Shown here in pieces: positions 8,366-53,975 of a stretch of 64,000 nt of DNA. The number at the start of each line of letters is the position of its first letter. Position 1 is the stretch's first letter. Both the position numbers and the translations under genes were made by a program. The DNA lies in contig CP133159.1 of the NCBI GenBank assembly GCA_030913385.1, positions 766,584 through 830,583 on the forward strand, given 5' to 3'. Source of the stretch: Cytophagaceae bacterium ABcell3. GTDB taxonomy: Bacteria; Bacteroidota; Bacteroidia; Cytophagales; Cytophagaceae. Below the pieces are notes generated by a model. That model was given only the letters and a program-made list of their open reading frames with translations. It searched no databases and was not told where the DNA came from.

Positions 8366-8493
8366 TTTGCTAACGTTGAGCGTAACAGATGCTGGAGATT
8401 TTTAAGTAATTTCCTATCCACCGCTAAAATGTGAAGGTAAAGAGAAACAGCCTGATTAACAATGCTCACCCCCTCTGATATATATTATACTGC
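8366..8493 (-). other. attC-like site, interrupted at R' by a mini-intron
   Basis: Opens GCTAACGTTGAG with the shared inner motif CTATCCACCG. The 3' arm ends at the first base of the 290-bp mini-intron. Pairing of the arms (GTAACAGATGCTGG against a diverged AT-rich 3' arm) is weaker than in other sites. Confidence 0.65.
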
Positions 8494-8783
8494 GCGCGCC
8501 CGGTATGGGCATCTGATATCGAAGATACCATATTATTCCAGAGGGTGCAATGCCTGTCCCGAATACTTTCGGGATCTCCGCCAACTGGCGGACAAATTAG
8601 TGAAGCCTGTTAACAAGTGGTCCTTAATATTGGGATGGTTTACCGTGAGGGGCGGAGCATTAAGAAATTTTCCAGTGGAGATTTTTAGCGATGAGCCGGC
8701 TTGTAGGGGAGGTACGAGACGTTCTTATGTCACCTGAGGCGCACTCTGTCAGTTTTTTTAGCTGGCAGAGCCGTCTACACGAT
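8494..8783 (+). mobile_element. ORF-less mini group II intron, copy 1
   Basis: Starts GCGCGCCCGGTATGGGCATC (introns elsewhere start GTGCGCCC) and ends GCAGAGCCGTCTACACGAT, the same ends as the 1.85-kb introns. The ORF and most of domains II-V are missing; the gap is occupied by a ~60-bp hairpin element. It sits at the R' position of an attC-like site, as do two more copies. It carries a CCCGAATACTTTCGGG palindrome insertion. Confidence 0.75.
8650..8713 (+). repeat. 60-bp hairpin element in mini-intron 1
   Basis: GGGCGGAGCATTAAGAAATT, then CCAGTGGAGATTTTTAGCG and GAGCCGGCTTGTAGGG. Member of the eight-copy family found only inside intron sequence here; it bridges the deletion of the intron ORF. 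Confidence 0.75.
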
Positions 8784-13061: not shown

Positions 13062-13353
13062 GTGCGCCCGGTATGGGCATCTGGTATCTAAGGTACCATA
13101 TTATTCCAGAGGGCGTAATGCCTGTCCCGAATACTTTCTGGATCTCCGCCAGCTGGCGGACAAGTTGGTGAAGCCTGTTAGCAAGTGGTCCCGATAGCTA
13201 TCGGGATGGCTTACCGTTAGAGGACAGAGCGTAAAGAAAATCTCCGGTGGAGATTTTTAGCGATGAGCCGGCTTGTAGGGTGGGCGAGACGCTCTTATAT
13301 CATCTGAGGCGCACTCTGTCAGTTATTCTGGCTGGCAGAGCCGTCTACACGAT
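13062..13353 (+). mobile_element. ORF-less mini group II intron, copy 2
   Basis: GTGCGCCCGGTATGGGCATC at the left and CCGTCTACACGAT at the right. Structure equals copy 1 and is nearly identical to copy 3, including two palindromes (CCCGAATACTTTCTGG and CCCGATAGCTATCGGG) and the 60-bp hairpin element. Confidence 0.8.
13219..13284 (+). repeat. 60-bp hairpin element in mini-intron 2
   Basis: AGAGCGTAAAGAAAATCTCC, loop, GGAGATTTTTAGCGA, then GAGCCGGCTTGTAGGG. It replaces the intron ORF region. Confidence 0.75.
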
Positions 13354-14141: not shown

Positions 14142-14431
14142 GTGCGCCCGGTATGGGCATCTGGTATCGAAGATACCAGATGCCCATACCGGGCGTAATG
14201 CCTGTCCCGAATACTTTCTGGATCTCCGCCAGCTGGCGGACAAGTTGGTGAAGCCTGTTAGCAAGTGGTCCCGATAGCTATCGGGATGGCTTACCGTTAG
14301 AGGACAGAGCGTAAAGAAAATCTCCGGTGGAGATTTTTAGCGACGTGTCGGCTTGTAGGGTGGGCGAGACGCTCTTATATCATCTGAGGCGCACTCTGTC
14401 AGTTTTTAGCTGGCAGAGCCGTCTACACGAT
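14142..14431 (+). mobile_element. ORF-less mini group II intron, copy 3
   Basis: Same ends and architecture as copy 2. Peculiarity: the 5' segment is a perfect palindrome, GCCCGGTATGGGCATCTGG paired with its complement around GAA, whereas the other copies have a diverged right half. The 60-bp element follows at 14299-14364. Confidence 0.8.
14299..14364 (+). repeat. 60-bp hairpin element in mini-intron 3
   Basis: Same as in mini-intron 2 except GACGTGTCGG in place of GATGAGCCGG. Confidence 0.72.
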
Positions 14432-37357: not shown

Positions 37358-39206
37358 GTGCGCCCAGTATGGGCATCAGGTATCGAAGATACCATATTAT
37401 TCCAGAGGGTGCAAGTCCCTTACAGGCGAGTTGGTGAAGCCTGTTAGCAAGTGGCAAGGTGGTTTACCGTGAGGTATGCACTGAAGAAAGCCAAACGGCA
37501 AAATCCGGTACTGACGAACAGGTTCGGTATACAGAGGCCAGTCGAGAAGGGTAAGCAAGCACATCTTTGCAAAGCCCCTGACCAACAATTCTCAACTGGT
37601 AGATACCGCAGGAATCGGAGGAAGGAATATGCCCTTACCTGGGGAGGTCTCTCAGATTACGTGTTAATCAGGGAGAAGTCAGTCCCGATAGCTATCGGGA
37701 TCGTAGTAGTTGTTTAGAAACGAGCCGTAAGAGCTACGGAGGTCTCACAGGATGATGAAGGACGAACGCTGAATCGTATCTGAATTCGGTCAGGAATGCG
37801 CCATGGCGGATAGCCTGTCCTTAAACAGACAAAGGAAAACTATGATAGAAAAAGTATTACAGCCTAAAAACCTGACCAGAGCATTGCAAAGAGTAATCAG
37901 CAATAAAGGGGCAGCAGGTATAGACAACATGACGGTAAAGGACCTGAAAGCTTTCGCTGACGAGAACCGCACCGCCATTGCCAGCTCTATACTGAACAGG
38001 ACGTATATACCCAAACCTGTCAAAGGGGTAGAAATACCCAAAGGTAAAGGGAAAACCAGAATGCTTGGAGTCCCGACAGTAACAGACCGGTGGCTGCAAC
38101 AAGCCGTAGGACGTCAGCTGGCTGCAAAATTCGAGCTGGATTTTGAAGAGTCCAGCTATGGTTTCCGGCCAAAGAAGAACCTTCATCAGGCAGTCCGCAA
38201 AGCACTGAAATACATCAATGATGGATATCAGGACATTGTGGACATAGACCTGAAAAGCTTTTTCGATGAGGTAAGCCACTGTAAACTGTTACAGCTTATT
38301 TACAACAAGATGAAATGCCCTGACACCCTGTGGTTGATCCGAAAGTGGTTACGTGTGCCGATCCTGATAGACGGGAAACTCCATAAACGGAGAAAAGGAG
38401 TGCCACAGGGCAGCCCGCTGAGTCCGCTTCTGTCCAATATTTTTCTGGATGAACTGGATAAAGAACTCAAGAAAATGGGCGTCCGGTATGTGCGCTATGC
38501 AGATGATTTCAGTATCTATACAAAATCAAAAGCAGAAGCAAAAAGGATTGGTAACAAGGTTTACCTTTTCCTGAAAGACAAACTGGAACTCCCAATCAAC
38601 AGAGAGAAAAGCGGGATACGCAGGCCTTCAACCTTCACCCTGCTGGGTCATGGTTTTGTACCAACCTATCAGAGAGGAGAAAAAGGCAAATATCAGCTTG
38701 TAGTAAAGAAAGAAAGTTGGGGAAACCTGAAACGCGAACTCAAATGGCTCACCAAAAAGACCAGCCCGTGCAGTCTGGAAAACCGGTTACGAAAGCTTAA
38801 AGAAGTGTGGAAAGGATGGGTGAACAACTACCGTCTGGCAAGTATTCACGGAAAACTGAAAGCACTTGATGAATGGTTGAGAAACCGGTTGAGATACTGC
38901 ATATGGCATGACTGGAAGAAGCCGGAGAGGAAACGAAAGAACCTTATCAGACTGGGAGTTGAACAAGGGATGGCATATGCCTGGAGCAGGACGAGAATGG
39001 GAGGCTGGGCTGTAGCTCAAAGTCCTATTCTTAAAACTACTATTACCTTGTCAAGGCTCAGAAGAAGAGGCTACGAGTCAATGTTGGATTATTACCTGAA
39101 ATACCGTCCCCAGATTCAGTGAACCGCCGTATACGAGACCCGTACGTACGGTGGTGTGAGAGGCGCACTCTGCCAGTTTTCTAGCTGGCAGAGCCGTCTA
39201 CTCGAT
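37358..39206 (+). mobile_element. Group II intron (IIC-attC type), intact copy
   Basis: Starts GTGCGCCCAGTATGGGC (GUGYG-type 5' end) and ends CTACTCGAT. A domain V-like hairpin, CCGTATACGAGACCCGTACG, and a domain VI-like CTCTGCCAG/CTGGCAGAG stem precede the 3' end. Carries a full RT-maturase ORF. Inserted at the R' core of an attC-like site. 1849 bp. Confidence 0.9.
37803..39122 (+). CDS. ltrA: Group II intron reverse transcriptase/maturase
   Basis: A 439-residue RT: early motif AAGIDNMTV, SSYGFRPKKN, DIDLKSFFDEV, GVPQGSPLSPLLSNIFLDELD and the active-site VRYADDFSIY. A maturase (GIIM) domain follows (WKGWVNNYRLASIHGKLKALDEWLR, RRRGYESMLDYYLKYRP). No HNH endonuclease is present, as in class C introns, which use hairpin DNA targets and nicked or replicating DNA. 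Confidence 0.95.
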   Translation: MADSLSLNRQRKTMIEKVLQPKNLTRALQRVISNKGAAGIDNMTVKDLKAFADENRTAIASSILNRTYIPKPVKGVEIPKGKGKTRMLGVPTVTDRWLQQAVGRQLAAKFELDFEESSYGFRPKKNLHQAVRKALKYINDGYQDIVDIDLKSFFDEVSHCKLLQLIYNKMKCPDTLWLIRKWLRVPILIDGKLHKRRKGVPQGSPLSPLLSNIFLDELDKELKKMGVRYVRYADDFSIYTKSKAEAKRIGNKVYLFLKDKLELPINREKSGIRRPSTFTLLGHGFVPTYQRGEKGKYQLVVKKESWGNLKRELKWLTKKTSPCSLENRLRKLKEVWKGWVNNYRLASIHGKLKALDEWLRNRLRYCIWHDWKKPERKRKNLIRLGVEQGMAYAWSRTRMGGWAVAQSPILKTTITLSRLRRRGYESMLDYYLKYRPQIQ

Positions 39207-39651
39207 GTGCGCCCAGTATGGGCATCAGGTATCGAAGATACCATATTATTCCAGAGGGTGCAAGTCCCTTACAGGCGAGTTGGTGAAGCCTGTTAGCAAG
39301 TGGCAAGGTGGTTTACCGTGAGGTATGCACTGAAGAAAGCCAAACGGCAAAATCCGGTACTGACGAACAGGTTCGGTATACAGAGGCCAGTCGAGAAGGG
39401 TAAGCAAGCACATCTTTGCAAAGCCCCTGACCAACAATTCTCAACTGGTAGATACCGCAGGAATCGGAGGAAGGAATATGCCCTTACCTGGGGAGGTCTC
39501 TCAGATTACGTGTTAATCAGGGAGAAGTCAGTCCCGATAGCTATCGGGATCGTAGTAGTTGTTTAGAAACGAGCCGTAAGAGCTACGGAGGTCTCACAGG
39601 ATGATGAAGGACGAACGCTGAATCGTATCTGAATTCGGTCAGGAATGCGCC

Positions 39652-40848
39652 ATGGCGGATAGCCTGTCCTTAAACAGACAAAGGAAAACTATGATAGAAA
39701 AAGTATTACAGCCTAAAAACCTGACCAGAGCATTGCAAAGAGTAATCAGCAATAAAGGGGCAGCAGGTATAGACAACATGACGGTAAAGGACCTGAAAGC
39801 TTTCGCTGACGAGAACCGCACCGCCATTGCCAGCTCTATACTGAACAGGACGTATATACCCAAACCTGTCAAAGGGGTAGAAATACCCAAAGGTAAAGGG
39901 AAAACCAGAATGCTTGGAGTCCCGACAGTAACAGACCGGTGGCTGCAACAAGCCGTAGGACGTCAGCTGGCTGCAAAATTCGAGCTGGATTTTGAAGAGT
40001 CCAGCTATGGTTTCCGGCCAAAGAAGAACCTTCATCAGGCAGTCCGCAAAGCACTGAAATACATCAATGATGGATATCAGGACATTGTGGACATAGACCT
40101 GAAAAGCTTTTTCGATGAGGTAAGCCACTGTAAACTGTTACAGCTTATTTACAACAAGATGAAATGCCCTGACACCCTGTGGTTGATCCGAAAGTGGTTA
40201 CGTGTGCCGATCCTGATAGACGGGAAACTCCATAAACGGAGAAAAGGGGTGCCACAGGGCAGCCCGCTGAGTCCGCTTCTGTCCAATATTTTTCTGGATG
40301 AACTGGATAAAGAACTCAAGAAAATGGGCGTCCGGTATGTGCGCTATGCAGATGATTTCAGTATTTACACAAAATCAAAAGCAGAAGCAAAAAGGATTGG
40401 TAACAAGGTTTACCTTTTCCTGAAAGACAAACTGGAACTCCCAATCAACAGAGAGAAAAGCGGGATACGCAGGCCTTCAACCTTCACCCTGCTGGGTCAT
40501 GGTTTTGTACCAACCTATCAGAGAGGAGAAAAAGGCAAATATCAGCTTGTAGTAAAGAAAGAAAGTTGGGGAAACCTGAAACGCGAACTCAAATGGCTCA
40601 CCAAAAAGACCAAACCGTGCAGTCTGGAAAACCGGTTACGAAAGCTTAAAGAAGTGTGGAAAGGATGGGTGAACAACTACCGTCTGGCAAGTATTCACGG
40701 AAAACTGAAAGCACTTGATGAATGGTTGAGAAACCGGTTGAGATACTGCATATGGTATGACTGGAAGAAGCCGGAGAGGAAACGAAAGAACCTTATCAGA
40801 CTGGGAGTTGAACAAGGGATGGCATATGCCTGGAAGGGCGGAACGTGA
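39652..40848 (+). pseudogene. Group II intron RT/maturase, C-terminus disrupted
   Basis: A 398-residue reading frame identical to the first maturase apart from a few residues (TKKTKPC, WYDWKK). It ends AYAWKGGT at the hairpin element; MGGWAVAQSPILKTT and the remaining C-terminus follow after the insertion. The RT domain and YADD are intact, but the C-terminal DNA/RNA-binding end is lost. Confidence 0.88.
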
Positions 40849-40900
40849 AGAAAATCTCCTGTGGAGATTTTTAGTGACGAGCCAGCCTGCAGGGAGGGTA
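40834..40900 (+). repeat. 60-bp hairpin element in intron 2
   Basis: GGCGGAACGTGAAGAAAATC, CTGTGGAGATTTTTAGTGAC, GAGCCAGCCTGCAGGG. In intron 1 the same position holds AGCAGGACGA. Confidence 0.85.
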
Positions 40901-41133
40901 GAATGGGAGGCTGGGCTGTAGCTCAAAGTCCTATTCTTAAAACTACTATTACCTTGTCAAGGCTCAGAAGAAGAGGCTACGAGTCAATGTTGGATTATTA
41001 CCTGAAATACCGTCCCCAGATTCAGTGAACCGCCGTATACGAGACCCGTACGTACGGTGGTGTGAGAGGCGCACTCTGCCAGTTTTCTAGCTGGCAGAGC
41101 CATCTACTCGATTATGCACTGGCTTTCTTGTCT

Positions 41134-41685
41134 TTACAGCCATTTTCCGATAATTATTTTAACGCCAAAATGGTTTCCCCACGTTGTTTGTCCATTGTCA
41201 TAAGCGAAATAAGTTCCGCCTAATTGAAGTCCAAATGTCATAGCAAAATTATTGTCAAACAGCAAGTTGTATCCAGGTTCTATCCAAAGTCCTAGGTTAT
41301 TATGTTCTTCAATTCTATTTCTAGTCACACTCAAAATTGGCGCAACAAAAAATCCCTTGGAGATTTCGTTTTGAGTTTCCTTCTGTTTAAAAAATATGGG
41401 CAAACCTGTCTCAAACCCAAAGTGACTGATTTCGTTTCCACTGTTTCTTATTCCAAGATTTACTATTGAAGAAAATCTGATGTCAAGTCTCTTTGTCAGA
41501 GTTCTTTGATAAACAAGTGGAAAAATATTTATGTCCAATTCTCCTTTGTCATAGAATGGTTCAACTGTCACGCTTGGGTTTAAGCCGATGAAGTTAAGTT
41601 TTTTGTCTTCTTGGGCAAAAAGTGGGGTCTTACAAACTATTAAGAATGTCGTTAGAATTATTATTTGCTTTGTTACTCTTTTCAT
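41134..41685 (-). CDS. Outer-membrane-type beta-barrel cassette protein
   Basis: A 183-residue exported protein. Start MKRVTKQIIILTTFL chosen because it begins a clear signal peptide ending TPLFAQ; the longer frame runs into the attC-like site. The mature part alternates strands (DINIFPLVYQRTLTKRLDIRF, GLWIEPGYNLLFDNNFAMTF, WGNHFGVKIIIGKWL) like small outer-membrane barrels. Function unknown. Its cassette lies between an intron-filled site and the next attC-like site. Confidence 0.72.
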   Translation of the reverse strand: MKRVTKQIIILTTFLIVCKTPLFAQEDKKLNFIGLNPSVTVEPFYDKGELDINIFPLVYQRTLTKRLDIRFSSIVNLGIRNSGNEISHFGFETGLPIFFKQKETQNEISKGFFVAPILSVTRNRIEEHNNLGLWIEPGYNLLFDNNFAMTFGLQLGGTYFAYDNGQTTWGNHFGVKIIIGKWL

Positions 41686-41714
41686 TGTCACGTCTTTTTG
41701 TCTCTTAAGCTGGT

Positions 41715-41871
41715 GCATAACGTTATTATAAGAAAAGTGCCGGGATTTAAAGAGCGTTCCTATCCTCCGGTAGCACGCCAGCACGCCTTATAAAAATAAT
41801 AAAATTGTGCGGGTTTTATAGATCTGCTCTCAACTCTTATTCTGAAGCCAGGCATTTTTTTTATAAATTGA
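41715..41871 (-). other. attC-like site with intron 3 at R'
   Basis: R'' GCATAAC; arms TTATAAGAAAAGTGCCGGG and CCAGGCATTTTTTTTATAA. Longer inner part (CACGCCTTATAAAAATAATA) shared with the site at 52124. The core beside the intron (TTGA / TCCATGC) is diverged from GTT. Confidence 0.75.
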
Positions 41872-42327
41872 GTGCGCCCAGTATGGGCATCTGGTATCGA
41901 AGATACCAGATTATTCCAGAGGGTGCAATGCCTGTCCCGAATCTTCTTCGGGATCCCTTACAGGCGAGTTGGTGAAGGCTGTTAGCAAGTGGCAAAGCCT
42001 GTCCCGAAAGCCTTCGGGAGTGGTTTACCGTGAGGTATGCACTGAAGAACTGCGAAGCATCTCATGAACACCTTATAAAATAAACACCCGTGAATAAAGC
42101 CAAACGGCAAAATCCGGTACTGCGGCCATACACGGGAGTGTATGGAGCGAGACATGCGGGCTGGGATTCGGTATACAGAGGCCGGTTGAGGAGGGTAAGC
42201 AAGCACGACCTGTCCCGAACGCTTTCGGGATCTTTGTAACGCCCCTGACCAACAATTCTCAACTGGTAGATACCGCAGGGGGCCGAATACGGGAGTATGA
42301 GGAGCCAGCAGGCGGGGAGCTACCTGT

Positions 42328-42392
42328 AGGGCTGAGCGTTAAGAAAACTTCCAGTGGAAGTTTTTAGCGAAGAGCCAGCTTGCAGGGCAGGG
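42328..42392 (+). repeat. 60-bp hairpin element in intron 3 (a)
   Basis: GGGCTGAGCGTTAAGAAAAC, TTCCAGTGGAAGTTTTTAGC, GAGCCAGCTTGCAGGG. Lies where intron 1 has about 50 bp of unrelated leader sequence. Confidence 0.82.
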
Positions 42393-42776
42393 CAGGCTAC
42401 GTGATAGCCAGTGAGAAGTCAGTCCCGATAGCTATCGGGATCGTAGTAGTCACCGGAACACGAGCCGGCACCGGAAGGATAAAGCCGGAGGTCTCATAAA
42501 AGTGATGAAGGACGAACGCTGAATCGTATCTGAATTCGGTCAGGAATGCGCCATGGCGGATAGCCTGTCCTTAAACAGACAAAGGAAATTATGATAGAAA
42601 AAGTATTACATCCTAAAAACCTGACCAGAGCATTGCAGAGAGTAATCAGCAATAAAGGGGCAGCAGGTATAGACAACATGACGGTAAAGGACCTGAAAGC
42701 TTTCGCTGACGAGAACCGCACCGCCATTGCCAGCTCTATACTGAACAGGACGTATATACCCAAACCTGTCAAAGGG

Positions 42777-42840
42777 AGGGTTGAGCGTTAAGAAACTTTC
42801 CTGAGGAAAGTTTTAGCGAAGAGCCAGCCTGCAGGGAAGG
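42777..42840 (+). repeat. 60-bp hairpin element in intron 3 (b)
   Basis: Interrupts the RT ORF after PKPVKG; intron 1 has GTAGAA at this point between CAAAGGG and ATACCC. Confidence 0.85.
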
Positions 42841-43020
42841 ATACCCAAAGGTAAAGGGAAAACCAGAATGCTTGGAGTCCCGACAGTAACAGACCGGTGG
42901 CTGCAACAAGCCGTAGGACGTCAGCTGGCTGCAAAATTCGAACTGGATTTTGAAGAGTCCAGCTATGGTTTCCGGCCAAAGAAGAACCTGCATCAGGCAG
43001 TCTGCAAAGCACTGAAATAT

Positions 43021-43085
43021 AGGGCTGAGCGTGAAGAAAACTTCCTGTGGAAGTTTTTAGCGAGGAGCCAGCCTGCAGGGGGAGG
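43021..43085 (+). repeat. 60-bp hairpin element in intron 3 (c)
   Basis: Sits exactly at the junction of the ~490-bp deletion of the RT core: left flank GCACTGAAATA, right flank AGCTTGTAGTAAAG. Confidence 0.87.
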
Positions 43086-43385
43086 AGCTTGTAGTAAAGA
43101 AAGAAAGTTGGGGAAACCTGAAACGCGAACTCAAATGGCTCACCAAAAAGACCAGCCCGTGCAGTCTGGGAAACCGGTTACGAAAGCTTAAAGAAGTGTG
43201 GAAAGGTTGGGTGAACAACTACCGGTTGGCAAGTATTCACGGAAAACTGAAAGCTCTTGATGAATGGTTGAGAAACCGGCTGAGATACTGCATATGGTCC
43301 CGATAACTATCGGGAGAAAAAGCCGGAGAGAAAACGAAAGAACCTTATCAGACTGGGAGTTGAACAAGGGATGGCATATGCCTGG

Positions 43386-43452
43386 AAGGGCGGAACGTGA
43401 AGAAAATCTCCTGTGGAGATTTTTAGTGACGAGCCAGCCTGCAGGGAGGGTA
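43386..43452 (+). repeat. 60-bp hairpin element in intron 3 (d)
   Basis: Same sequence and position as the element in intron 2, so the two copies share this insertion by descent or conversion. Confidence 0.87.
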
Positions 43453-43674
43453 GAATGGGAGGCTGGGCTGTAGCTCAAAGTCCTATTCTTAAAACCACTA
43501 TTACCTTGTCAAAGCTCAGAAGAAGAGGCTACGAGTCAATGTTAGATTATTACCTGAAATACCGTCCCCAGATTCAGTGAACCGCCGTATACGAGACCCG
43601 TACGTACGGTGGTGTGAGAGGCGCACTCTGCCAGTTTTCTAGCTGGCAGAGCCGTCTACTCGATTCCATGCTGG

Positions 43675-52956: not shown

Positions 52957-53975
52957 TTTCCCTTTTGGTTTCCTTTTAGTCTTCAATATATGCTTTAAGT
53001 TCGATAAATTCAAATCATCTGCCGGGCTTTTTATACCTTTAATGTACCTTATACTTACGTGGGTGTATATCTCACTTTACTACTGTTGTGGCCCAATAAT
53101 TCCTGAATGTACCTTATATCTGTTCCATTTTCTAACAGATGGGTGGCAAATGAGTGTCTCAACCAATGCAAGGTAGCATCTTGAGGAAGTCCTGCGTCCA
53201 GGCAGGCGTTTTTAAAGACCGATTGTAGGCTCTTTTTTGAATATTGCCCTCCGAACTGCCCTTCAAAAAGATAGTGTGATGGTTTGTAGGCTTTATAGTA
53301 AGCTCTAAGCAGGTCCAGGTTTTGTTTAGAAAGTAAAGTAATACGATCTTTTGCCCCTTTGCCCTTTTCTATCATCAGATACCCTTGTTCTTTATTTATG
53401 TCACAGATTTTTAAGTTTAGCAACTCACCTGCCCGCAAACCGGAAGCATATACCAGTGTAAGCATACAAAGATGTTTTATATTCTTACACTTAGAAAAAA
53501 TCCTCTGTATCTCTTCTTTAGAAAATGTTTTCGGTAATCTTTTTTCTTTTTGTGGACTTGTTACGGCCAAACATACATCTGTTCTTTTCAGAACTTCTCT
53601 ATAATAAAAATTGATGGCGTTAATCATCACATGAATACTAGATGTTCCATACTTCCTAGCTGTACTACAAGCTAATACATAGCTGTTTATTTCTTCAAAG
53701 TGTAGATCGTCGACTTTTTTGCTTTTATTTTGCCAGTAAAAACAAAACCTGTAAAAGTTATTATAGTAAGAACTAATGGTTTTATCGCTATAATTATTGG
53801 CCTTCAATGTTTTAAGATAATCCTCAGGAATATGTATTCGATCTTTGTACGATTGAGTCCAAAGTTGCTCTTTAAGTATTAGACTTTGTATGGACATATT
53901 TTGGTGTATGAAAAAATAAACCGTTCCTTGCACACACCTTAGCAGGCGGTAAAGTAGTTTTTCGTCCGCAAGCAT
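52954..53975 (-). pseudogene. Tyrosine recombinase at array end, frameshifted before catalytic Tyr
   Basis: A Xer/phage-integrase-type recombinase. Visible: SAM-like N-terminal domain (YSDKTISSYYNNFYRFCFYW), Arg181 (ASGLRAGELL), Lys206 (EKGKGAKDR), His270/Arg273 (HWLRHSFATHLL), His296 (LLGHNSSK). The frame then shifts: after NSSK a net 4 nt seem missing, and EIYTHVSIRYIKGIKSPADD, with the nucleophilic Tyr, continues in another frame to a stop at 52954. It lacks the extra ~20-residue patch of integron IntI between the Lys hairpin and the HxxR box. It is on the cassette strand, its 3' end facing the array. The start is 3 nt after the upstream gene. Confidence 0.85.

Follow-up and report, generated by a model that had tools for sequence, protein, structure and literature searches.

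A hairpin element of about 60 nt that interrupts group II introns and other sequences across Bacteroidia with small losses of target

Why copies of one ~60-bp hairpin should lie at the deletion junctions of group II introns is the question raised by the DNA analysed here, a 64,000-nt window (positions 766584–830583) of the single-contig 5.115-Mb chromosome of Cytophagaceae bacterium ABcell3. The window contains three long introns and three mini-introns, all on the + strand, which we take to be of group IIC type from their sequence features, Rfam itself assigning them to group II only. Intron 1 (37358–39206) is intact, matches Rfam RF02001 and RF00029, and encodes a 439-aa reverse transcriptase (RT)/maturase with Pfam RVT_1 and GIIM domains; it served as the element-free reference for flank mapping. 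Intron 2 (39207–41112) follows immediately and is 99% identical to intron 1. Its RT is cut to 398 aa by one element (40835–40894), inside which the stop codon lies. The site of this element, at the RT C terminus (site F), has had 9 bp (AGCAGGACG) replaced and is also occupied in loci L199 and L203 of other genomes. Intron 3 (41872–43664) is degenerate and contains further small inserts and four elements: one in the ribozyme region 3′ of CTACC (site E, 42328–42387), one in the RT replacing GTAGAA (site H, 42777–42836), one where 482 bp of RT are missing (43021–43080), and one at site F (43387–43446), identical to that of intron 2 and again replacing AGCAGGACG. The mini-introns (8492–8783, 13062–13353, and 14142–14431) each carry one element (8649–8708, 13221–13280, and 14301–14360, respectively) and have lost ~1.66 kb, including the open reading frame.

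Each of these eight copies, whose cores start at the first positions given, is on the + strand, aligns across ~60 nt and is found by a covariance model with E ≤ 2e-16. A pattern scan of the window gave 10 matches compared with 2.4 expected, a count reached in 0 of 100 shuffles. The eight hairpins reported by a first-pass annotation are thus real, and the losses that it had placed at 42777 (GTAGAA, 6 bp), at 43021 (put there at ~490 bp), and in the mini-introns (the whole reading frame) were all recovered on alignment.

The element is ~60–66 nt in length and can be written AGGRC-n-GAGC-GTTAAGAAA-stem-loop-stem-TTTTTA-GCGA-n-GnGCCAG-nn-TGNAGGG-nRGG. Alignment of 35 diverse copies gave an imperfect hairpin with two helices around an internal loop. 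AGGRCnGAGC forms its 5′ foot, the apical helix has 9 pairs and a loop of 3–5 nt, and the basal helix contains a tandem G.A step in most copies, with normal pairs in its place in L109 and L113; TGNAG sits 3′ of the hairpin and is variable. Across the 35 copies covariation was 0.558, compared with 0.137 ± 0.015 after shuffling, 82% of cells were paired, compared with 38–43% when slid by one, and changes on both sides of a pair were seen in 132 cells. The stems of related copies differ in sequence yet are compensated. At site F in particular, what appears to be one and the same insertion differs in stem sequence among lineages and families with pairing kept, which is not expected from plain decay of a dead insertion; selection may have continued there, other copies may have converted the resident one, or one copy may have been exchanged for another.

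A first covariance model (R1), built from the eight window copies and run on the whole chromosome, identified at least 18 copies. Besides the eight, five are found in degraded introns or intron-like remnants (chromosome positions 66121, 68660, 72867, 2784592, and 4844752), and the other five lie in RHS-type genes and not in introns (339699, 340010, 886433, 4625866, and 4626331), an assignment checked by family search with pieces of the RHS core taken from this genome and its relatives. The RHS copies have a different stem, TGATTT..AAATCA. The view that all copies lie inside intron sequence therefore holds for the window, where all eight are in group II introns or mini-introns, and fails genome-wide. 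The R1 model also found copies in 9 further genomes of the order. A second model (R2) was used for the order and class surveys and placed the family in at least 58 of 390 genomes of the order, mostly from one family and with several to many copies each, and in at least 27 of 395 genomes of the class, genome and copy counts being lower bounds with few candidates scored per genome. Carriers across Bacteroidia include Algoriphagus, Belliella, Anditalea, Lunatimonas, Aquiflexum, Litoribacter, and Flavobacterium, and 138 distinct sites were tabulated.

Related copies were found in group II introns, RHS genes, CRISPR repeats, tRNA-gene fragments, and intergenic DNA, so the element is not specific to introns; all but the last of these are repeated or dispensable hosts that are used recurrently, and the copies of genome G049 appear to be mostly intergenic. 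CRISPR repeats are interrupted between CCACTAAAACAAGG and ATTAAGAC in L194 (six copies), L212, L198, and L096 (two each, those of L096 with an extra palindrome), and a second repeat type is interrupted in L173 and L178. One CRISPR repeat position has been struck identically in several genera by copies with differing stems. Other copies follow fragments of tRNA-Arg, tRNA-Ser, and tRNA-Glu genes. No Rfam 15 family matches the element, and at permissive E-values Rfam returned introns, tRNAs, CRISPR repeats, and weak chance matches near the copies, nothing else. Neither was a description of such a repeat found in the literature searched on Algoriphagus, Cyclobacteriaceae, or group II introns, and a hairpin family spanning a bacterial class apparently has not been described so far. 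Viral spread was considered and rejected, the exact consensus pattern having 0 matches in viral contigs. It was also observed that the CRISPR arrays of L194, L212, and L096 hold other palindromes inside repeats besides the element, with two element stem types in L194. In L099, L108, L223, and L224, from two unrelated families, the element lies downstream of tRNA-Glu after duplicated tRNA-Glu 3′ ends, which together with the element form a tandem array in L224.

Comparison with some 15 uninterrupted counterparts, many of them only 75–95% identical, showed what a single insertion does: in most cases ~6–12 bp of purine-rich target are replaced, and no target is duplicated. Such small losses were seen at 40835 and 42777 in the window, in RHS genes (L183, L200, L201, and L202), in RT genes (L199, L203, and L213), and in an intergenic inverted repeat (L205 and L209). 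The replaced bases include GAATCAA and GAAAGGTC in RHS genes, GGACAGGG 5′ of an RT start, and ~12 bp of the intergenic repeat; one RHS site may have lost only 2–5 bp. The net gain in length was 57 at site F and 58 at site H. Bases just 5′ of the element are purine-rich, typically RAGG, as are those replaced (about RAGG/GRAR across the junction), and among 20 sites G was found at −1 in 14, G at −2 in 10, and A at −3 in 12, with an uncertainty of a few bases at the junctions, since element ends and targets alike are G/A-rich. Recurrence of the element at sites F, A, G, D, and E across genera is explained in part by the host intron having been inherited or transferred, without fresh insertion. 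The suggestion of the first-pass annotation that a small mobile element is inserted at the cost of target bases is supported by these counterparts, and the clean duplications without lost sequence that the annotation had associated with an ordinary MITE were seen at none of them. Insertion precisely at the Cas6 cut was also considered. The repeat read as CAAGG/ATTAAGAC fits, taking the handle at its usual position; the repeat read as CAGGAATT/GAAA is ~3 nt off, and the claim was dropped.

The large deletions have a different signature. When element flanks were mapped on intron 1 coordinates, the element at 43021 was found to join 855 to 1338, with 482 bp lost. Its left flank is that of site A (853/864, left/right), which is occupied in L203 and L213 (genomes G205 and G336), and its right flank is that of site B (1329/1343), occupied in L199 (genome G282). 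Similarly, the mini-intron element at 8649 joins 115 to 1775, that is, the left side of site C (116/127, occupied in L213 of G336) to the right side of site D in D5, where the intron resumes at 1774 in L208 (genome G285); its right flank also matches that of the site D copy in L061. The C/D junction is common to all three mini-introns. Other combinations, with flanks assigned by inspection, were seen in L191 (site E to site F) and at L208:2543 (site E to site D). Because each deletion has the left flank of one site and the right flank of another, both sites being intact in other genera, the 482-bp and 1.66-kb deletions would be products of recombination between two resident copies in the same orientation, not insertion events. 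With all intron copies in one orientation, recombination of any two gives a deletion that leaves one copy, so that the large-deletion junctions would need no special process, the recombination being read from the junctions rather than observed. Introns may be eroded by such repeats in this manner, two insertions and one recombination being enough to eliminate an entire reverse transcriptase.

The most probable explanation is that the element is a non-autonomous, REP/MITE-like hairpin spreading through Bacteroidia, with small replacements on insertion and large deletions by recombination between copies, transposition being deduced from sequence comparison and not from direct observation. The mobile form, whether ssDNA or cDNA, would most likely be a single-stranded hairpin and be recognised through its fold. 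Its G/A-rich ends (AGG.. and ..AGGGnRGG) may join the purine-rich target via short annealing, the few target bases between the annealed ends being traded out, and at a later stage two resident copies in the same orientation would recombine, deleting the intervening DNA and leaving one chimeric copy. That the element instead brings the large loss with it on insertion, or serves to fill a break or a point of template switching in intron reverse transcription, as the first-pass annotation had also proposed, is highly improbable. An element does lie at every large deletion junction examined in the window, but the junction halves match two insertion sites present separately, with small losses, in other genera, and non-intron copies show small losses only; the A/B and C/D site pairs largely refute this reading. 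What stands of the claim that each element replaces missing sequence is the 6–12 bp exchanged on insertion, the large losses being attributable to later deletion between two copies. A REP mobilised in trans by a RAYT/Y1 (HUH) transposase, with an ssDNA hairpin cut at its foot and pasted after a short target, appears somewhat unlikely. The bulged-hairpin fold and conserved flanking bases are similar to RAYT substrates, the chromosome has six Y1_Tnp matches, and IS200/IS605 elements likewise insert in one orientation next to a short motif. However, in the search suggested by the first-pass annotation, none of the six genes has the element nearby, 36 Y1 loci from this genome and the carriers are free of it for ~1.5 kb on each side, and Y1 matches are absent from two of 9 other carriers searched (G045 and G060). 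Moreover, the hairpin has no conserved GTAG head, and target bases are lost, a feature not known from IS200/IS605 insertions.

Orientation bears on RNA-mediated spread, in which transcribed copies would be reverse-transcribed, for example by a group II intron RT, and placed in transcripts or displaced strands. All 28 intron copies are sense, as are 26 RHS copies and every copy internal to an RHS gene, the two scored as antisense (L211:2946 and L200:2664) being placed by their flanks in a nearby intergenic repeat outside the gene. In CRISPR arrays the copies are on the strand where the repeat terminates in ATTAAGAC, and yeast GC clusters are suspected of the same route (PMC4478555). Sense orientation as proof of RNA-level insertion is nonetheless weakened by the hosts themselves, in which 59–85% of purine-rich runs are on the sense strand; this target preference explains much of the sense bias, perhaps not all. 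Copies adjoining tRNA-Glu and tRNA-Ser run antisense to the tRNA, and this speaks for the target-motif reading. Of the carriers, 14 of 40 have a group II maturase domain, compared with 6 of 40 non-carriers; none could be detected in the remaining 26 carriers, and dependence on this enzyme was rejected; these carriers, together with the copies outside introns, also count against the filling of template-switch points. Since neither a Y1 gene nor a group II maturase occurs in all carriers, neither is required in present-day carriers. RNA-mediated spread is thus considered unlikely. It is quite doubtful that the element moves as structured RNA or cDNA, enters transcribed sequence in sense with a few nt replaced, and retains its fold through selection at the site, the hairpin being still in use, whether copied, removed, or bypassed in host RNA; were such a reading true, this would be a bacterial retro-element of ~60 nt without a gene of its own. 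A functional RNA part kept in place, with the insert tolerated via ribosome bypass or RNA removal like mitochondrial byps, is very unlikely: it would suit the stems at site F, which stay paired in different families, and some RHS copies that are read through in frame, but the net gain in length is not always divisible by three, the RT of intron 2 stops inside the element, excision could not restore the replaced bases, and copies also occur in D5 and beside tRNA fragments.

The preferred reading, a hairpin of REP/MITE type, places the element closest to the CGTC-tagged REPs and the GC clusters of yeast mitochondria. CGTC REPs, which include the Rickettsia palindromic elements, have no known transposase, and how palindromic repeats spread without one is an open question (PMC3733652). 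Like them, the element is a short imperfect hairpin with many stem subtypes, is found within genes as well as outside them in Bacteroidetes, and has no associated transposase gene as far as Y1 transposases are concerned. It is nevertheless not a CGTC REP, because the tag is not conserved and the stem plan is different: in place of an unpaired terminal CGTC, it has CNTC on the reverse strand, where the N pairs and covaries (columns 10/50), its two helices around an internal loop and its 60–66 nt exceed an 8–9-bp stem with a 4–5-bp loop, and it has a conserved 3′ tail (GCCAGnnTGnAGGG) instead of CCA. With GTAG REPs and REPINs (PMC2817692, PMC3116915) the element shares a dispersed hairpin with conserved flanking bases, and some copies form close inverted pairs (e.g. 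L204 and L209), but it has no GTAG-type tetranucleotide at its 5′ foot and no adjoining RAYT. Yeast GC clusters (PMC4478555) are likewise small mobile hairpins of constrained structure, with altered bases adjoining the insertion and exchange between homologous copies; they are organellar, leave AG target footprints, and differ in sequence, whereas here 6–12 bp are replaced at purine-rich sites of bacterial chromosomes. Bacterial MITEs are also short, non-autonomous, and multicopy, but the lack of target duplication sets the element apart from a typical MITE. A family that spans a bacterial class, has CRISPR repeats, RHS genes, and group II introns among its targets, and leaves so rare a footprint, with many sites that have uninterrupted counterparts, culturable hosts (Algoriphagus and Belliella), and clear subtypes, makes the spread of transposase-less repeats testable.

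Several smaller features accompany the introns of the window. Between ~8000 and 46100, introns and mini-introns lie between small genes, inside palindromic spacers resembling integron attC sites (ATAACCGAGGCTGGGC..GCCCAGTCTTGGTTAT), and this region resembles an integron cassette array; a tyrosine recombinase is encoded at 53055–53975. The mini-introns have no normal D5 and occupy three distinct attC-like contexts, and two of them share 98% identity over 217 nt; movement in trans and conversion of introns already at those sites are the two alternatives. Intron 3 holds further small palindromes (41919–42231 and 43300–43317) of two types. Three are of the CCTGTCCCGAA..TTCGGGA type, with ~1 base of the intron lost at each, and the CCCGATAGCTATCGGGA type has dozens of chromosomal copies. 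Relatives of an insert of ~48 bp at 42045–42095 (GCGAAGCATCTCATGAACACC..GTGAAT) occur in an intron from another genus (L203, 2505–2555 and 1535–1595), and this insert would represent a separate small element family. Hairpin inserts are also found at 42124–42168 (ATACAC-GGGA-GTGTAT) and 42279–42323 (GAATAC-GGGA-GTATGA), and the 3′ portion of the latter (GAGCCAGCAGGCGGGGAG) is similar to the tail of the main element.
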